Positions 33,666 through 52,899 of a stretch of DNA of 64,000 bases are shown in pieces; the first letter of the stretch is position 1, and each line of letters starts with the position of its first letter. This DNA is from a virus: IMG/VR virus record IMGVR_UViG_3300049489_000477, positions 52,507 through 116,506 of that record. One strand, given 5' to 3'. The notes under the pieces are model-generated. The model was not told the DNA's origin, did no database searches, and worked only from the letters and a program-made list of their open reading frames with translations. A program made the position numbers and the translations under genes.

Positions 33666-34109
33666 ATGGCGCACAAGATTTTAAAAAGAAGGAAAGTTGC
33701 TGATCCATCAAGATATTACATCGACCACGACGAATATACAGGCGAAGTTGTAAAATTCATCAAGACGCAAGTAGCCTCCGAGCGCCTGGGTGAGATATGG
33801 AAGATGCATGTCGATAAGTGTGCAAGTGCCGCATGTTTTAAGAGCTATACATATCTTGACGAAATGAAAGGTTGTGCATTGCTGTTTCTTGTTAAATATT
33901 CGAAGTCATTCAATCCAAAGAAGATTTTAGACTCAGGAAAAGCACCAAACGCTTTTAAATATTGCACTTCGATAATTCACAACGCATTTATCCAGGTTAT
34001 TAATAAAGAGAAAAAGCATTCGAAGCTAAAAGACAAGATTATCAAATTACACCAACGAATTGTATATAATCTAAATAATTTTACAACTCCTTCAACTATT
34101 GACGATTAG
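33666..34109 (+). CDS. 55: Late transcription sigma factor gp55
   Basis: A 147-residue homologue of T4 gp55 (185 residues), which directs host RNA polymerase to TATAAATA promoters. The match is clearest at GKAPNAFKYCTSIIHNAFIQ near residue 97, followed by KEKKHSKLKDKI; T4 has NPHAYITQACFNAFVQ followed by KKERKE. This is the sigma region 2 helix that reads the -10 octamer. The T4 C-terminal clamp-binding tail (SLDFLYE) is not evident: the protein ends FTTPSTIDD. Its target octamer occurs at least thirteen times in the window. Confidence 0.82.
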   Translation: MAHKILKRRKVADPSRYYIDHDEYTGEVVKFIKTQVASERLGEIWKMHVDKCASAACFKSYTYLDEMKGCALLFLVKYSKSFNPKKILDSGKAPNAFKYCTSIIHNAFIQVINKEKKHSKLKDKIIKLHQRIVYNLNNFTTPSTIDD

Positions 34110-34131: not shown

Positions 34132-35208
34132 ATGGGTCATAGGATACTTTTAGTTTCTGATGTACATTTCGGCGTCAAGAGCAACAGTGAGTCATTCTTA
34201 AAGGTAACAGAAAATCTTTTTCTCAATACCATTAAGAAAATAATAATTGACGAGAATATCACTGATATCCGCATTCTTGGCGACTTGTTCGATAATAGAA
34301 ATACTGTAAATGTCAGAACATTTAACAGCGTTATGAAAGTCTTTCGTTGGTACCAAACGAACATGCCTGCGGTGAAGTGGAAGGTACTACTTGGCAACCA
34401 CGATATATACTACCACAATCGTTTAGATATTAATTCCATTGAAATGTTGCGTGAGTTGCCTAATGTTCAAATTATAGAAGATGTCGTTGAAGAGACGATT
34501 AATAATAAATCAATCATCACATTCCCGTGGCTCATAAAAGATTCGTCGCAGTATATAAAATTTAAAGAGGTATCTAAAGGATCTAAAAAGTACGACTTAT
34601 GTTTAGGTCACTTTGAGATAAATGGATTTGAAGTGATGCATGGCATCGTCCATGATGGTGGAAATGATAACGGAGAATTCAAAAACTTCGGCAGAGTGTT
34701 CACTGGACATTTTCATATCCGCGCCACGAAGAATCATATTTCATACCTTGGATCCCCATATCAAATAACCTGGGGTGATTACGGTGACGAAAAGGGTATT
34801 CATATCTATGATATTGATGAAAAAACAGTCAAGTTTATTCCAAATATCGATTCGCCTGTTTATATTCGTATAAACATGAAAGATTTGATAGATAAAAATA
34901 TAGAAAAGTTAAAGCGCGTAAAAGACAACTATGTAAAGCTCGTTATTGACGAGAAATATTCTGATGCGTTCATTGTCAAAGCGATTGCAAAAATTGAAAG
35001 CTTTATGCCAGTGAAATTAGAAGTAGAAAATAATTTCATCGAGCCATTTGATGGTGAAAATGTCGCTGATGTTGATTTCACAAAAATGAACGATCCGATG
35101 GTCTTTTTAGATGAGTACATACGAAATCTTGAAAACTTCGATCAGAACATTGATAAGAACGAATTTTCAGAGTATGTAAGAAATGTATACGGAGCAATAA
35201 ACAAATGA
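34132..35208 (+). CDS. 47: Recombination nuclease subunit gp47 (Mre11/SbcD)
   Basis: A 358-residue calcineurin-like phosphodiesterase that with gp46 resects DNA ends. Metal motifs in order: LLVSDVHFG (near residue 5), LGDLFDNR (near 48), LLGNHDIYYHNR (near 84), a later GHFEI, and FTGHFHIR (near 195). T4 gp47 has 339 residues. I choose ATG 34132; an in-frame TTG 33 bases upstream has no ribosome-binding site. The stop overlaps the gene 46 ATG. Confidence 0.95.
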   Translation: MGHRILLVSDVHFGVKSNSESFLKVTENLFLNTIKKIIIDENITDIRILGDLFDNRNTVNVRTFNSVMKVFRWYQTNMPAVKWKVLLGNHDIYYHNRLDINSIEMLRELPNVQIIEDVVEETINNKSIITFPWLIKDSSQYIKFKEVSKGSKKYDLCLGHFEINGFEVMHGIVHDGGNDNGEFKNFGRVFTGHFHIRATKNHISYLGSPYQITWGDYGDEKGIHIYDIDEKTVKFIPNIDSPVYIRINMKDLIDKNIEKLKRVKDNYVKLVIDEKYSDAFIVKAIAKIESFMPVKLEVENNFIEPFDGENVADVDFTKMNDPMVFLDEYIRNLENFDQNIDKNEFSEYVRNVYGAINK

Positions 35209-42426: not shown

Positions 42427-42480
42427 TAATTCGTATCTTGAATTAAATATCCGTTATATATACTAGCCAAAGGAGTATAT

Positions 42481-43890
42481 ATGGCGGATAAGGATAGAAA
42501 GCAGCTTTACATTTTAAAAGGATTATTGAAGCATACAGACTATGTTTCAAAGTTTATAGACAAACTTAATCCAGATTGGTTTTCATTTGAAGTTGCTCCA
42601 GTTGTTTTAACAGTTAAAAAGTATTTCTTAAATTATCAGAAGTTACCATCCATTGAGATGGTTTGTGATGTGCATTTAGAGAAAATATGCAACGGAGATA
42701 CTGAACGAAAAGATAATGCGGTATTAGCTATTGAAGAAGCTCTATCATTGCCTTTTGAACAAAAAGAATATGAAGAACATTTCGATTGGCTTGTTTCGAT
42801 GTCAAAAGAATGGATTATAGACAAATCCGTTGAACATGCGCTCATGCAAGCCGCCAATCTTTATGAGCAAGGCAAGCGACAAGAAGCAGTCCATAAGATT
42901 CTTGAAGCATCGCACATAAATTTTGATGATGATATAGGTTTGGAATATATTGCCGATATTGATCGCCGCATAGAAAATTTACGAGAAAAGAAACTTATCA
43001 TTCCTACAGGGATAACTTCACTTGATGATCGTATTGGTGGTGGCTGGCGTCCAAAGTCTCTGATCGTTTTTGGTGCTGCTACCAATGTTGGTAAGACATT
43101 GATTTTAGGTGCCATAACCGCTCACTTGATGCAACAAGGCTATGACGGTTTATATATAACCCTTGAAATTAATGATTACATGTTATCCAATAGAATTGAC
43201 GCAAACATTGCTGATATTCCGCTGAATGATTTAGTTAACCAGGCAGATAGATTAAAAGAAATCATATCAAACAAAGTCGAAACAGCTAAAAGAAACAATA
43301 AGCCAATTGGTCGTTTGATTGTCAAAGAATATCCACCGGCTACTGTTTCAGCACAGACGATTTTAGCAGCTATTCGTGAATTAGAGATTAAGCGCGGTGG
43401 TTTTAAACCAGACTTCATTTGTGTGGACTATCTTGGTTTAATGACGCCGAATGCCAAGGCTTTCTCTGATAATACATATGGAAAATTAAAGACAGTTGCC
43501 GAAGAATTACGAGCCATAGGCACAAAGCTATCGGTTCCTGTTTTTAGTGCCGTACAGGTAAACAGAGAAGGTTTCAATCAAGAGAAGTTGGGTCTGCAAA
43601 ATACCAGCGACTCGATGGGCATTCCTATGACCGCCGATTTGATGATCATGGTCAGTAGAAATGAAGAATTAGATAAGCAAAATAAGATGCGTTGGGAAAT
43701 AGCCAAATCGCGCTGGTCCCGCAATGGTGAAGGTATGACGATTCATGTTGATTTCGACCATATGAGAATATCCGATACATCCGATGCTCTTGCTGCTGAA
43801 CCAACAGCCGAGCAGCTTCGCATACATGCAAATTTAGAAACGAAGGAACAGCTTAATGCTCTTCCTGTTAAAAAACCGATTATTACTTAA
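42481..43890 (+). CDS. 41: Replicative helicase gp41 (DnaB family)
   Basis: A 469-residue hexameric helicase (T4: 475 residues) that unwinds ahead of gp43 and works with primase gp61. The N-terminal helical domain covers about 150 residues. Walker A is GAATNVGKTLI near residue 198 and Walker B FICVDYLGLM near residue 313. VFSAVQVNREG near residue 355 is the sensor region. AAAGGAG precedes the ATG. It is the first gene of the 41-32 stretch. Confidence 0.95.
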   Translation: MADKDRKQLYILKGLLKHTDYVSKFIDKLNPDWFSFEVAPVVLTVKKYFLNYQKLPSIEMVCDVHLEKICNGDTERKDNAVLAIEEALSLPFEQKEYEEHFDWLVSMSKEWIIDKSVEHALMQAANLYEQGKRQEAVHKILEASHINFDDDIGLEYIADIDRRIENLREKKLIIPTGITSLDDRIGGGWRPKSLIVFGAATNVGKTLILGAITAHLMQQGYDGLYITLEINDYMLSNRIDANIADIPLNDLVNQADRLKEIISNKVETAKRNNKPIGRLIVKEYPPATVSAQTILAAIRELEIKRGGFKPDFICVDYLGLMTPNAKAFSDNTYGKLKTVAEELRAIGTKLSVPVFSAVQVNREGFNQEKLGLQNTSDSMGIPMTADLMIMVSRNEELDKQNKMRWEIAKSRWSRNGEGMTIHVDFDHMRISDTSDALAAEPTAEQLRIHANLETKEQLNALPVKKPIIT

Positions 43891-47594: not shown

Positions 47595-47602
47595 TATAAA
47601 TA
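47595..47602 (+). promoter_or_regulatory. T4-type late promoter on the plus strand
   Basis: Plus strand TATAAATA starting three bases after the stop of the RmlC/D gene, 16 bases before ATG 47619, followed by CAGGTAGGAG. It is the only exact plus-strand late octamer I found. Confidence 0.75.
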
Positions 47603-47618: not shown

Positions 47619-48392
47619 ATGAGAAACATCCTACTTGTATTGTTTGCGACAATGTGTGTTAGCTTTTTTGCATCATGTGGATACATGAGTGATGCCCGCG
47701 AAAAAGCCGTTACAACTGGTTTTAAAGATATAAAAGAATTAACTGTTGCTGTTCAACAGTGGGCGGTTCCGCCAGCCGAAGTTATTGCTACTATTAATGT
47801 AATAGCATCAACACTAGCACAGAGCATGGACCCAAATAACGAGGTCTTACCTACAAAATCAGCATATGAAATATACCAAGGTCACTTATTCGGTGTTCAG
47901 CACAATAAACCAAATCCAGCTTTGAAAGAAATCGAAGAGGCTACAAAAGCAAATGTTGATGATATCGGTACATGGACTTGGAGTGGTGTATTCGCTGGAT
48001 CATTAATCGCTCTTGGTTTCGCTGGAAAATTGATGGGTGGTCCATGGAATGTTGCTGGTACGGTATTACAAGGAATTGGTCGCCGCATGGTTCCTGACTA
48101 CGACAAGACCAAGAAAGCTGTTATTGGAGCCATCGCATCGGTTGATAGGGCACTTACCGATTACGGTGATTTGCTTGAAACATTACCAGAAACGCGCAAG
48201 GCACTAACCGAAAAGCTTGGTAAGGATCCTGTCGAATGGATGAAAGAGCGTCTGAATAAGGCACAAACAGACTTGAACACACCAGAGGTTTCAGAAATGA
48301 TGTCGCTTATGAAAAAGCACATGACAACCGAAGATGGTGTTTTAAAGCCAACTACCAGTGAAATTGACAGCTTCTTCAAAAAGATGCTGTAA
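47619..48392 (+). CDS. Late lipoprotein
   Basis: A 257-residue predicted lipoprotein: MRNILLVLFATMCVSFF, then lipobox FASC with Cys20. The residue after Cys is Gly, so outer-membrane sorting would be expected in an enterobacterial host. Residues about 112-135 (TWSGVFAGSLIALGFAGKLM) form a second hydrophobic segment, with charged helices on both sides. It has its own late promoter and good ribosome-binding site. Candidate roles are superinfection exclusion or a lysis accessory protein; no spanin partner was identified nearby. Confidence 0.65.
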   Translation: MRNILLVLFATMCVSFFASCGYMSDAREKAVTTGFKDIKELTVAVQQWAVPPAEVIATINVIASTLAQSMDPNNEVLPTKSAYEIYQGHLFGVQHNKPNPALKEIEEATKANVDDIGTWTWSGVFAGSLIALGFAGKLMGGPWNVAGTVLQGIGRRMVPDYDKTKKAVIGAIASVDRALTDYGDLLETLPETRKALTEKLGKDPVEWMKERLNKAQTDLNTPEVSEMMSLMKKHMTTEDGVLKPTTSEIDSFFKKML

Positions 48393-48422
48393 ACTCTCGG
48401 CTTGAATAGATTTATTGGTGGC

Positions 48423-48428
48423 TATAAT
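48423..48428 (+). promoter_or_regulatory. -10 box for gene 45
   Basis: Plus strand GGCTATAAT, 17 bases before ATG 48446, with AAAGGAT between. Confidence 0.5.
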
Positions 48429-48445
48429 CCGTAAAAGGATTTCAT

Positions 48446-49189
48446 ATGTCATCGTCAGAACCTATTCTTGAGGGAACCTTTTCAAAAGATAAGGCAAACG
48501 CTTTTGTAGATGCGCTATCACTGTTAGCAAGCATCGATGTTAAAAAACTTGTTCTTGAATTTAAAGGGGACGGAGTAAAGACATTAAGTGTATATGCACT
48601 TAACACCGCAAACACCGTAAATATGCGTCTGCATTTCGATCCGTGTCTTTTAGATGGCTTCACGATTACAAAGGATTTTAATTACGGTATAACCGATATC
48701 AATGATCTTGTGGGTATACTTGATGTTTTTGAAAATGGTTTCTCTATAAAAATGTCAGAAGATATAGCATCCATTAGCTCGAATGAAAACTACCTTGATT
48801 ACTACGGGGCGGATCAATCACGCATCAAGCGCGGCGAATCTGCTGAGTTAGATTGTAAGCTGCTTGCCAGCATAACATGCGATGGAACATTTAAAGAATT
48901 CATAAAAGCCATTGGTAAGACAGAGAATAACCATATCGTATTTAAAGGCGATGCTGCAAAGAAATCCATTACCATATCTCTTATGGATAAAGATGTTCGC
49001 GGCAACACATTTTCAAAACTTGTTCAAGTACCGGATCTTGCCGAAGATTTCAAAGTATCCATTAACAGAGAGTATTTCAAAAAAGTATTAACAACAAACT
49101 GCTCATTCAATATATATAGAGAAGCTATCCAGTTGACAAAAAAGACCGACTTGTTTAACATTGAATATCTTATTTTAACCCTTGTTTGA
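48446..49189 (+). CDS. 45: Sliding clamp gp45
   Basis: A 247-residue processivity clamp (T4: 228 residues). The order 45, 44, 62, regA matches T4. The sequence has the clamp-like duplicated beta pattern: KLVLEFKGDGVKTLSVYALN early, and FKVSINREYFKKVLTTNCSF then DLFNIEYLILTLV at the end, resembling the T4 C-terminus. In T4-type phages the clamp also activates late transcription together with gp55. Confidence 0.88.
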   Translation: MSSSEPILEGTFSKDKANAFVDALSLLASIDVKKLVLEFKGDGVKTLSVYALNTANTVNMRLHFDPCLLDGFTITKDFNYGITDINDLVGILDVFENGFSIKMSEDIASISSNENYLDYYGADQSRIKRGESAELDCKLLASITCDGTFKEFIKAIGKTENNHIVFKGDAAKKSITISLMDKDVRGNTFSKLVQVPDLAEDFKVSINREYFKKVLTTNCSFNIYREAIQLTKKTDLFNIEYLILTLV

Positions 49190-51308: not shown

Positions 51309-51740
51309 ATGGAAAAACGAGTTGGGTTGACTAAGAAAGAAAAACCGAAATCGACAGCGTTTTTCGATGTGTTAAAAGACATACGAACAACCAAACAAGG
51401 AAACTTGTTCGATGTTGAGGGGTCGGCTTATGAGAACGAATTCAGCCCCATGATGGCTCTTCGCTTTCTTTCCATGAATGAAGAATTGTGCCCGCTCGTA
51501 AATTCCATAAATCACATTCAAGATTCGTTTGATAAAAAACAGATATACACATTGCTTATCGAGTTGATTCCAAAGACACAATATAGCCAATTCATCAAGT
51601 CGCATAAAGAACACTTCGAATATGAAAAGGATGTTGCTGACTATTACCAATGTTCATTGAAAGACGCGAGAGAGTACATCAAACTCATGGGATCAGCCTG
51701 GGCAGAAGAGATACACAGGTCATACGGAGGCGCACAATGA
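51309..51740 (+). CDS. 62: Clamp loader small subunit gp62
   Basis: A 143-residue protein resembling gp62 of distant T4-like phages (T4: 187 residues). Family-like segments are FSPMMALRFLSMNEELCPLV near residue 45, LVNSINHIQDSFDKKQIYTL near 63 and DVADYYQCSLKDAREYIKLM near 109. One gp62 joins four gp44 subunits in the loader. Position just before regA matches T4. The stop overlaps the regA ATG. Confidence 0.8.
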   Translation: MEKRVGLTKKEKPKSTAFFDVLKDIRTTKQGNLFDVEGSAYENEFSPMMALRFLSMNEELCPLVNSINHIQDSFDKKQIYTLLIELIPKTQYSQFIKSHKEHFEYEKDVADYYQCSLKDAREYIKLMGSAWAEEIHRSYGGAQ

Positions 51741-52126
51741 CTATTGGTATAAAAGTAGAGCTTCTTACAGATTATTCCATCATTTGTGAAACACTTGAAC
51801 GCATTGGTGTTGTAAACAAGAAAGAGAAGAAAATCTATCCATCGTGTTATTGTCATAAAATGACAGATGACGCCGGAAACACAGAATATCGTATTTGTCA
51901 CTTTAAAGAAATGTTCACACTACAAGGTAAGCCGACAACTTTTAATAACCTTGATAAGTTGCGTTTAAAAACAATAGTTTATTTCTTAATAAAGTGGAAT
52001 CTTATACGAGTTGAAAAAGCCATTGATGAAATTTTAAAAGAAAAAATCGATATTGTCAAATATAGTGACAAAAAAGATTATAAAATAATTCATAAATTTA
52101 AGCATAACGAGCAACCAGAGGCTTGA
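51737..52126 (+). CDS. regA: Translational repressor RegA
   Basis: A 129-residue homologue of T4 RegA (122 residues), which binds start regions of early mRNAs. CETLERIGVVNKKEKKIYPS near residue 16 and YRICHFKEMFTLQGK near residue 52 match the T4 sequence closely. IIHKFKHNE near the end matches the T4 tract with LIHKY. I start at ATG 51737, overlapping the gene 62 stop with GGAGG upstream; a longer frame to the left lies inside gene 62. Confidence 0.93.
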   Translation: MTIGIKVELLTDYSIICETLERIGVVNKKEKKIYPSCYCHKMTDDAGNTEYRICHFKEMFTLQGKPTTFNNLDKLRLKTIVYFLIKWNLIRVEKAIDEILKEKIDIVKYSDKKDYKIIHKFKHNEQPEA

Positions 52127-52139
52127 TATTCAAAATACA

Positions 52140-52164
52140 CTCCTATAATCTCAAATTATAGGAG
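52140..52164 (+). promoter_or_regulatory. Inverted repeat combining promoter and ribosome-binding site
   Basis: CTCCTATAAT and ATTATAGGAG are perfect 10-base complements around CTCAA. The left arm contains a TATAAT box (52144-52149). The right arm contains the AGGAG of the gene at 52170. A read-through transcript can fold and hide AGGAG; a transcript started from the local box begins near 52156 and lacks the left arm. Confidence 0.65.
52144..52149 (+). promoter_or_regulatory. -10 box downstream of regA
   Basis: Plus strand CTCCTATAAT, 20 bases before ATG 52170. It lies in the left arm of the inverted repeat described at 52140-52164. No clear -35 or TGn extension. Confidence 0.4.
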
Positions 52165-52169
52165 TTCAC

Positions 52170-52481
52170 ATGCGTAAGACAAAAAATACCGACGATGTAC
52201 CAGCCGATGAGGCGACCAAGCCACAGAAGCCCAAGAAAGAGTTCGAAGTAACCATCACGATCTGGGATGACGGTGAGGTTACGAATAAACTTGTAGAGTT
52301 TATTAAAAAGGAGCGTGGCGCTCCCGAAAAGTGGCTGCGTAAGCCCGATCAGTTCAATGCCGCCATTAAGGACAAGATTTCAGAGAATCCTGTCCTCTTA
52401 CTGGAAAAGATTGCCGAAGGATTGAGTATCAATCTGTCAGCTTTCTTCGCAGCCAAGACAAAAGCCGAAGAAGGTAAGTAA
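52170..52481 (+). CDS. Unknown 103-residue protein under RBS-hairpin control
   Basis: Not recognised. A Lys/Pro-rich N-terminus is followed by KEFEVTITIWDDGEVTNKLV, a beta segment, and a helical end (LLEKIAEGLSINLSAFFAAK). Its ribosome-binding site lies in the right arm of a perfect inverted repeat. It starts 43 bases after regA and is followed four bases later by the Nudix gene. Confidence 0.55.
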   Translation: MRKTKNTDDVPADEATKPQKPKKEFEVTITIWDDGEVTNKLVEFIKKERGAPEKWLRKPDQFNAAIKDKISENPVLLLEKIAEGLSINLSAFFAAKTKAEEGK

Positions 52482-52485
52482 GCAT

Positions 52486-52899
52486 ATGCGCTACGCCCTT
52501 GGCTTTTGCTTTACCACTGATAAAAAGCATGTGGCTTTGATTCATAAAGAAAAGCCATTGTGGCAAGCCGGTTATGTAAACGGCATTGGTGGAAAAATCG
52601 AAGAGAACGAATCGCCAATTGACTGCATGCAACGAGAGTTTCGTGAAGAAACCGGTGTTGACATCAACAATTGGCGATTCTTTTGTGTGGTGAGTGGAGA
52701 ATGGGGTGAAATCCATATCTTCAAAGCATTCAACAATAAAGTTTGGAGCGCAACCACACAAGAGGAAGAAAAAGTCGAGATTATGGAGATTGATAAGCTA
52801 CCGTATAACATGATGATTCAAAATCTACGGTGGATTATCCCCTTGGCATTAGATAAAGATGATGTTGCTGGTGATATGCGAGAACGAAAAATACAATAA
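52486..52899 (+). CDS. Nudix hydrolase
   Basis: A 137-residue Nudix pyrophosphohydrolase. The Nudix box is visible from GGKIEENESPIDCMQ to REFREETGVDI near residues 33-58, with the consensus G, E and REUxEExGU residues intact. The N-terminus RYALGFCFTTDKKHVALIHK is typical of MutT-like enzymes acting on nucleotides. The substrate (oxidised dNTP, NAD-type cofactor or RNA cap) cannot be decided. It may be coupled to the preceding gene. Confidence 0.88.
   Translation: MRYALGFCFTTDKKHVALIHKEKPLWQAGYVNGIGGKIEENESPIDCMQREFREETGVDINNWRFFCVVSGEWGEIHIFKAFNNKVWSATTQEEEKVEIMEIDKLPYNMMIQNLRWIIPLALDKDDVAGDMRERKIQ

Follow-up and report, generated by a model that had tools for sequence, protein, structure and literature searches.

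The element at positions 52139-52165, which lies behind the regA gene of an uncultured T4-like phage, is likely to be a cis-acting translational insulator that allows the 103-aa gene downstream to be translated only from RNA made at its own promoter. RNA reading through from the clamp-loader/regA operon would carry both arms of an inverted repeat, fold and hide the Shine-Dalgarno (SD) sequence of the gene. The 5′ arm lies in and just before the -10 box of the gene itself, and RNA started at this local sigma70-type promoter would begin at the right arm. With its leader of about 14 nt, such RNA would be unable to fold, would leave the SD sequence open and would be translated. Throughout, the window is the whole stretch of DNA analysed, 64 kb taken from an IMG/VR virus record of 116.5 kb.

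The inverted repeat behind regA

The + strand of the window carries a T4-type replication set, comprising a gp55-like late sigma factor (gene at 33666), a gp47/gp46-like nuclease, DNA polymerase, UvsX, a DnaB/gp41-type helicase, the sliding clamp, the clamp loader subunits gp44 and gp62, and regA, while the terminase, portal, capsid and tail sheath genes are on the - strand (genes were called by a simple script and not by a standard gene finder). The regA stop codon occupies 52124-52126. Relatives of the 103-aa gene are 56-64% identical in four other aligned contigs, with one further match; a protein search of the phage collection with the 103-aa protein gave no match, and its predicted structure was of low confidence (pLDDT 51) and was set aside. 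The Nudix hydrolase gene that follows is possibly coupled to the 103-aa gene, and the relatives that could be read beyond the 103-aa gene are without a Nudix gene at that place.

Table 1. Coordinates of the sites predicted to be insulated, their neighbouring genes, the late motif and comparable sites in T4
Feature	Position	Strand	Remark
regA translational repressor	51737..52126	+	closes the operon upstream (clamp, gp44, gp62, regA)
-35 box TTGATA	52123..52128	+	overlaps the regA stop codon
Left arm ACTCCTATAAT	52139..52149	+	11-bp repeat; -10 box inside
-10 box TATAAT	52144..52149	+	15-nt spacer; read from the sequence, kept in relatives
Loop CTCAA	52150..52154	+	read from the sequence
Right arm ATTATAGGAGT	52155..52165	+	SD sequence inside
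SD sequence AGGAG	52160..52164	+	sequence and folding
103-aa gene, function unassigned	52170..52481	+	translation predicted to be gated
Nudix hydrolase gene	52486..52899	+	4 nt past the 103-aa gene
Sliding-clamp gene, second instance	48402..48446	+	TTGAAT-N15-TATAAT (48423-48428); p = 0.007
gp41-type helicase gene, third instance	42438..42481	+	TTGAAT-N15-TATACT (42459-42464); p = 0.007
Late motif TATAAATA, examples	27204, 23669, 17832, 17045, 13089	-	motif
Late motif TATAAATA, lone + strand copy	47595	+	precedes a lipoprotein-like gene, a short way ahead of the clamp operon
T4 regB, alc, alt.-3	L083 13240, L084 37278, L084 24032	-	hairpins of -23 to -25 kcal/mol

The first-pass annotation had described a perfect 10-bp repeat with TATAAT in its left arm and AGGAG in its right arm. 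The arms CTCCTATAAT (52140-52149) and ATTATAGGAG (52155-52164) and the loop CTCAA (52150-52154) are all exact and both boxes lie in the arms to which it had assigned them (at 52144-52149 and 52160-52164), but each arm is one base longer, giving an 11-bp perfect inverted repeat (ACTCCTATAAT/ATTATAGGAGT) with a 5-nt loop that is followed by TCAC and the ATG of the 103-aa gene at 52170. The motif is present in a single copy in the window and in 0/100 shuffles, even allowing 3 mismatches. Five sites in the 64 kb carry a perfect hairpin whose arms reach 10 bp or more around a loop of 3-12 nt. First-order Markov sequences of this length yield about 0.9 hits, a tally to which a single long hairpin may contribute more than once, and the repeat by itself is therefore only mildly unusual. 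The unlikely part is its placement over a promoter box and a ribosome-binding site (RBS) together.

Transcription is predicted from the sequence to start at about 52155-52156, some 6 nt past TATAAT. The 15-nt spacer between the -35 and -10 boxes is below the optimal length, and a consensus scan of the region, which excluded the 15-nt spacer of the 52144 box, returned 21 promoter matches where 21.3 were expected (not significant). The promoter at 52123-52149 is thus supported by its conservation in relatives and not by its consensus match. Rfam gave no match at gathering score between 40000 and 58000, and querying the phage collection with the locus at the DNA level gave none either. The exact repeat pattern was also absent from the viral contigs scanned, which would be expected of arms that can vary freely.

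As computed at 37 °C with one energy model, for a phage and host that are uncultured and with promoter calls that rest on consensus and conservation, the pairing probability of AGGAG falls from 0.999 in the long RNA to 0.41 in RNA that begins at 52156. Opening the RBS takes 14.9 kcal/mol in the long RNA versus 2.6 kcal/mol from the predicted start. The model thus agrees with both earlier claims, namely that the long regA-operon RNA would sequester AGGAG and that locally started RNA would free it. The difference in opening cost, 12.3 kcal/mol, compares with 3.6 +/- 2.0 in permutations that fixed the -35 box, the -10 box, the SD sequence and the coding sequence and permuted the remaining positions (p = 0.001-0.005 in four runs of 1000). 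With the 5′ end placed 6 nt or more before the -10 box, the opening cost always stays at about 13-15 kcal/mol. It drops to 11.0 for an end 3 nt before the box and to 3.7 for one at the box itself, where the left arm is lost and the switch occurs.

Since the hairpin lies directly 3′ of the regA stop codon, it could instead end or attenuate transcription of the regA operon, as a terminator or as a stabiliser of the RNA end, and the scan does list a terminator-like match on the - strand. However, the + strand has no such match and no U-run after the stem (AGGAGUUCACAUG), the stem is A+T-rich and no nearby - strand gene is in need of a terminator. An intrinsic terminator was rejected on the stem composition, the missing U-run and the absence of a + strand match, and we regard this wider reading as quite unlikely.

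Hairpins re-made around kept promoters

Relatives of regA were found among viral contigs, and a promoter of the form TTGAtt/TTGACA-N15-17-TATAAT-like is kept after regA in L002, L003, L004, L005, L008, L010 and L016, with TTGATT in L002-L005 where the window has the -35 box TTGATA. In two of the three other lineages with a promoter before the 103-aa gene, hairpins of different sequence bury the RBS, namely TTCCTTTCTCCTTC..GGAAGGACAAAGGAG over the SD sequence in L016 (p = 0.003) and CCTTGTTCC-TATAAT-GGATTCAAGG over the SD sequence in L002 (p = 0.037). The hairpin is thus re-made with other sequences in these two lineages, but lacks significance in the near-identical L004 and L005 (p about 0.4), in which promoter and gene are kept. 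L003 is a natural experiment, in which an extra gene inserted between regA and the 103-aa gene took over both promoter and hairpin. The promoter and a hairpin, TTCATGCCC-TATAAT-GGGTTCATGAA, remain next to regA, where they overlie the inserted gene's start codon (p = 0.010). Displaced from them, the 103-aa gene has neither promoter nor hairpin, and its RBS is open (2.8 kcal/mol, p = 0.46). A more distant group carries a different gene behind regA, which is not insulated.

The same arrangement recurs at other genes. Gene starts were called, scored for sigma70 promoters blind to structure and then fold-tested; among the genomes G000-G005, 15/44 promoter-borne starts had p < 0.05, and with G006, G007, G009, G010 and G012 added, 30/98 promoter sites reached p <= 0.05 where 5 were expected (binomial tail 5e-16, orthologous sites being not fully independent). 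Starts with a weak or no promoter score were positive at 6/55 sites between genes and 4/69 in tight operons, and several of the six intergenic ones have a late-type TATAAATA box or a TATAAT box that the scoring had missed. The other 68 of the 98 promoter sites tested are not significantly insulated, so that the hairpin rule is gene-specific and selection for the hairpin acts on particular genes. In Pelagibacter phage HTVC008M (50 kb tested) 0/10 promoter sites are insulated and the design is therefore not universal; the scan of an Ochrobactrum phage yielded no testable site.

The sliding-clamp gene is significant in all ten genomes tested (p 0.007-0.03). Its arms are AATCC (48426-48430)/GGATT (48437-48441) in the window and vary elsewhere, being ATAATGAT/ATCATTAT in L047, GGGT/ACCC in L050 and CCTGTATCTC/GAGATGCAGG with one G-U pair in L057. 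At the helicase gene, where the window has the arms ATATACT (42458-42464)/AGTATAT (42474-42480), orthologues with a promoter score of at least 9 are insulated in 8/12 cases versus 0/10 without a promoter (one-sided hypergeometric about 0.0015), a contrast that is partly confounded by relatedness, since most of the promoterless orthologues are distant. An independent new helicase case, with arms ACTCCTTAT/ATAAGGAGT, occurs in L090.

It is very unlikely that the palindrome is a functionless, A+T-rich product of chance, arising from a TATAAT near an SD sequence. TATAAT does pair partly with A+T-rich leaders and L004 and L005 have no significant hairpin, but the permutations with the boxes held fixed, the recurrence at so many promoter sites and the unbroken series at the clamp gene all argue against it. 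A DNA operator, at which a dimeric repressor or activator would bind the palindrome over the -10 box with only an incidental overlap of the RBS, is unlikely as well. The perfect palindrome does overlap the -10 box, and at L044 19756 (-) a promoter before a 67-aa gene has its -35 box in the palindrome TTGATTTTTAAAAATCAA, which is possibly a protein operator. The arms, however, are not the same from gene to gene within a genome, nor from relative to relative at a given gene, and therefore offer no shared operator site; despite these changes the right arm still covers the SD sequence or the start codon, and several helices contain bulges or G-U pairs.

The variation of the arms also bears on a switch operated by RegA or another phage RNA-binding protein in place of a passive block to read-through RNA. 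RegA is encoded immediately upstream and the T4 protein represses several replication mRNAs (PMC3014915), but T4 RegA sites are unstructured, A+U-rich and include the AUG (PMC3014915), whereas the arm sequences here vary freely, and we give such a switch very little credence.

As for other promoter types, hairpins were also seen over a late-type box at L049 17418 (+), with GTGTATCT/AGATACAC after TATAAATA, and over late-type or -35-less boxes at L052 13371 (+) and L054 13386 (-), with AAATAGC/GCTATTT and AACTCCTAT/ATAGGAGTT respectively, which suggests that the relatives also use the hairpin design there. At 34132 in the window, L010 5407, L025 4446 and L003 5430, an ATG lies exactly 6 nt past a TATAAT-like box with a good -35 box, and leaderless mRNAs are predicted for these genes. 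Strong symmetric hairpins at 2430 (AAAATCGCCGC/GCGGCGATTTT) and 32483 (AAAAAGCCACGA/TCGTGGCTTTTT) in the window are likely bidirectional terminators.

Comparison with T4 and other read-through blocks

The design logic is already known from T4 gene e, which encodes lysozyme. In the group of such genes, which includes soc, 49, 25, 26, I-TevI, I-TevII, I-TevIII, segB and Aeh1 mobE, long RNA reading through from upstream folds up and conceals the RBS, and a promoter inside or just past the left arm gives RNA without that arm (PMC3014915, PMC2988022). One review describes the genes known to be regulated by T4-type RBS hairpins as all late (PMC2988022), whereas the window promoters are of the sigma70 type (TTGAnn/TATAAT) and the gated genes are replication genes. 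At 52170 the SD sequence is predicted to lie in a stable helix of the long transcript, the short RNA from the gene's own promoter would lack the 5′ arm, and the regA operon stands upstream on the same strand with no + strand terminator at the site, so that read-through is predicted; the box is TTGATA-N15-TATAAT and not the T4-type late promoter (TATAAATA, gp55). The earlier proposal that the site follows the logic of T4 late genes thus holds for the read-through RBS hairpin but not for the box, which is of a sigma70-type early kind.

In Bacillus subtilis, a large hairpin at sigG has been proposed to prevent the translation of RNA reading through from the upstream spoIIG promoter, whereas RNA made at the promoter of sigG itself is unable to fold in this way (PMC5942855). 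This case differs in being a single chromosomal sporulation gene of unrelated sequence. Transcripts from outside the IS10 and IS50 transposase genes also hide the RBS while RNA from their own promoter does not, but these hairpins derive from the end repeats of mobile elements and are unrelated.

When applied to T4 itself (NC_000866), the structure-blind scan was positive at 6/20 sites and recovered blind the known RBS-sequestered cases of I-TevI, I-TevII and gene 26. The other three positives, regB, alc and alt.-3, have boxes that resemble early promoters, and in each of them the left arm falls within the -35/-10 spacer and the right arm holds the SD sequence. The regB helix, at -23 kcal/mol, is kept in Mosigvirus with both arms changed (CCTCTTGACTG/CAGTTAAGAGG vs CCTCTAGTTG/CAACTAGAGG). 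The open-access reviews consulted make no mention of these three cases, which may have been reported earlier in a subscription journal. A search of the contig for a homologue of the RegB nuclease gave no match, and its control likewise gave none.

Proposed translational gating and the timing of replication genes

The late motif TATAAATA is found mainly on the - strand, which carries the structural genes, and 10 of its 12 copies on that strand have a gene start within 45 nt. Late RNA from the lone + strand copy at 47595 would run through the clamp operon toward 52170, and the hairpins at 48446 and 52170 would stop it from making replication proteins, in a mirror image of T4 gene e. The purpose of the insulator is probably that the output of the replication genes follows their own early promoters and that read-through RNA, including late RNA, is silenced. 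Behind the + strand late motif, the 257-aa gene at 47619 has an RBS that pairs with its own early codons in a 13-bp helix of -18 kcal/mol, which a change of promoter would not fully remove.

What is new here is the repeated use of the gene e logic on sigma70-type promoters of replication genes. T4-like phages may widely restrict the translation of early and replication operons to their own early promoters and keep read-through and late RNA silent, a generalisation to which we give somewhat less than an even chance; if true, these phages would have a general layer of time gating, extending to T4 regB, alc and alt.-3, as the counterpart of the silencing already known for late genes in early RNA. 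The hairpin design would also serve as a compact, naturally occurring part for shielding genes from transcription that arrives from upstream, and the early promoters of regB and alc would allow its role to be tested directly in T4. If our reading is correct, it would also allow true promoters in uncultured phages to be recognised by a test on the sequence, and the handful of T4 late-gene cases would become a repeated design in which new hairpins evolve around conserved promoters. Much of the read-through RNA over replication genes would then be untranslated, and RNA levels alone could therefore not give the timing of phage gene expression.
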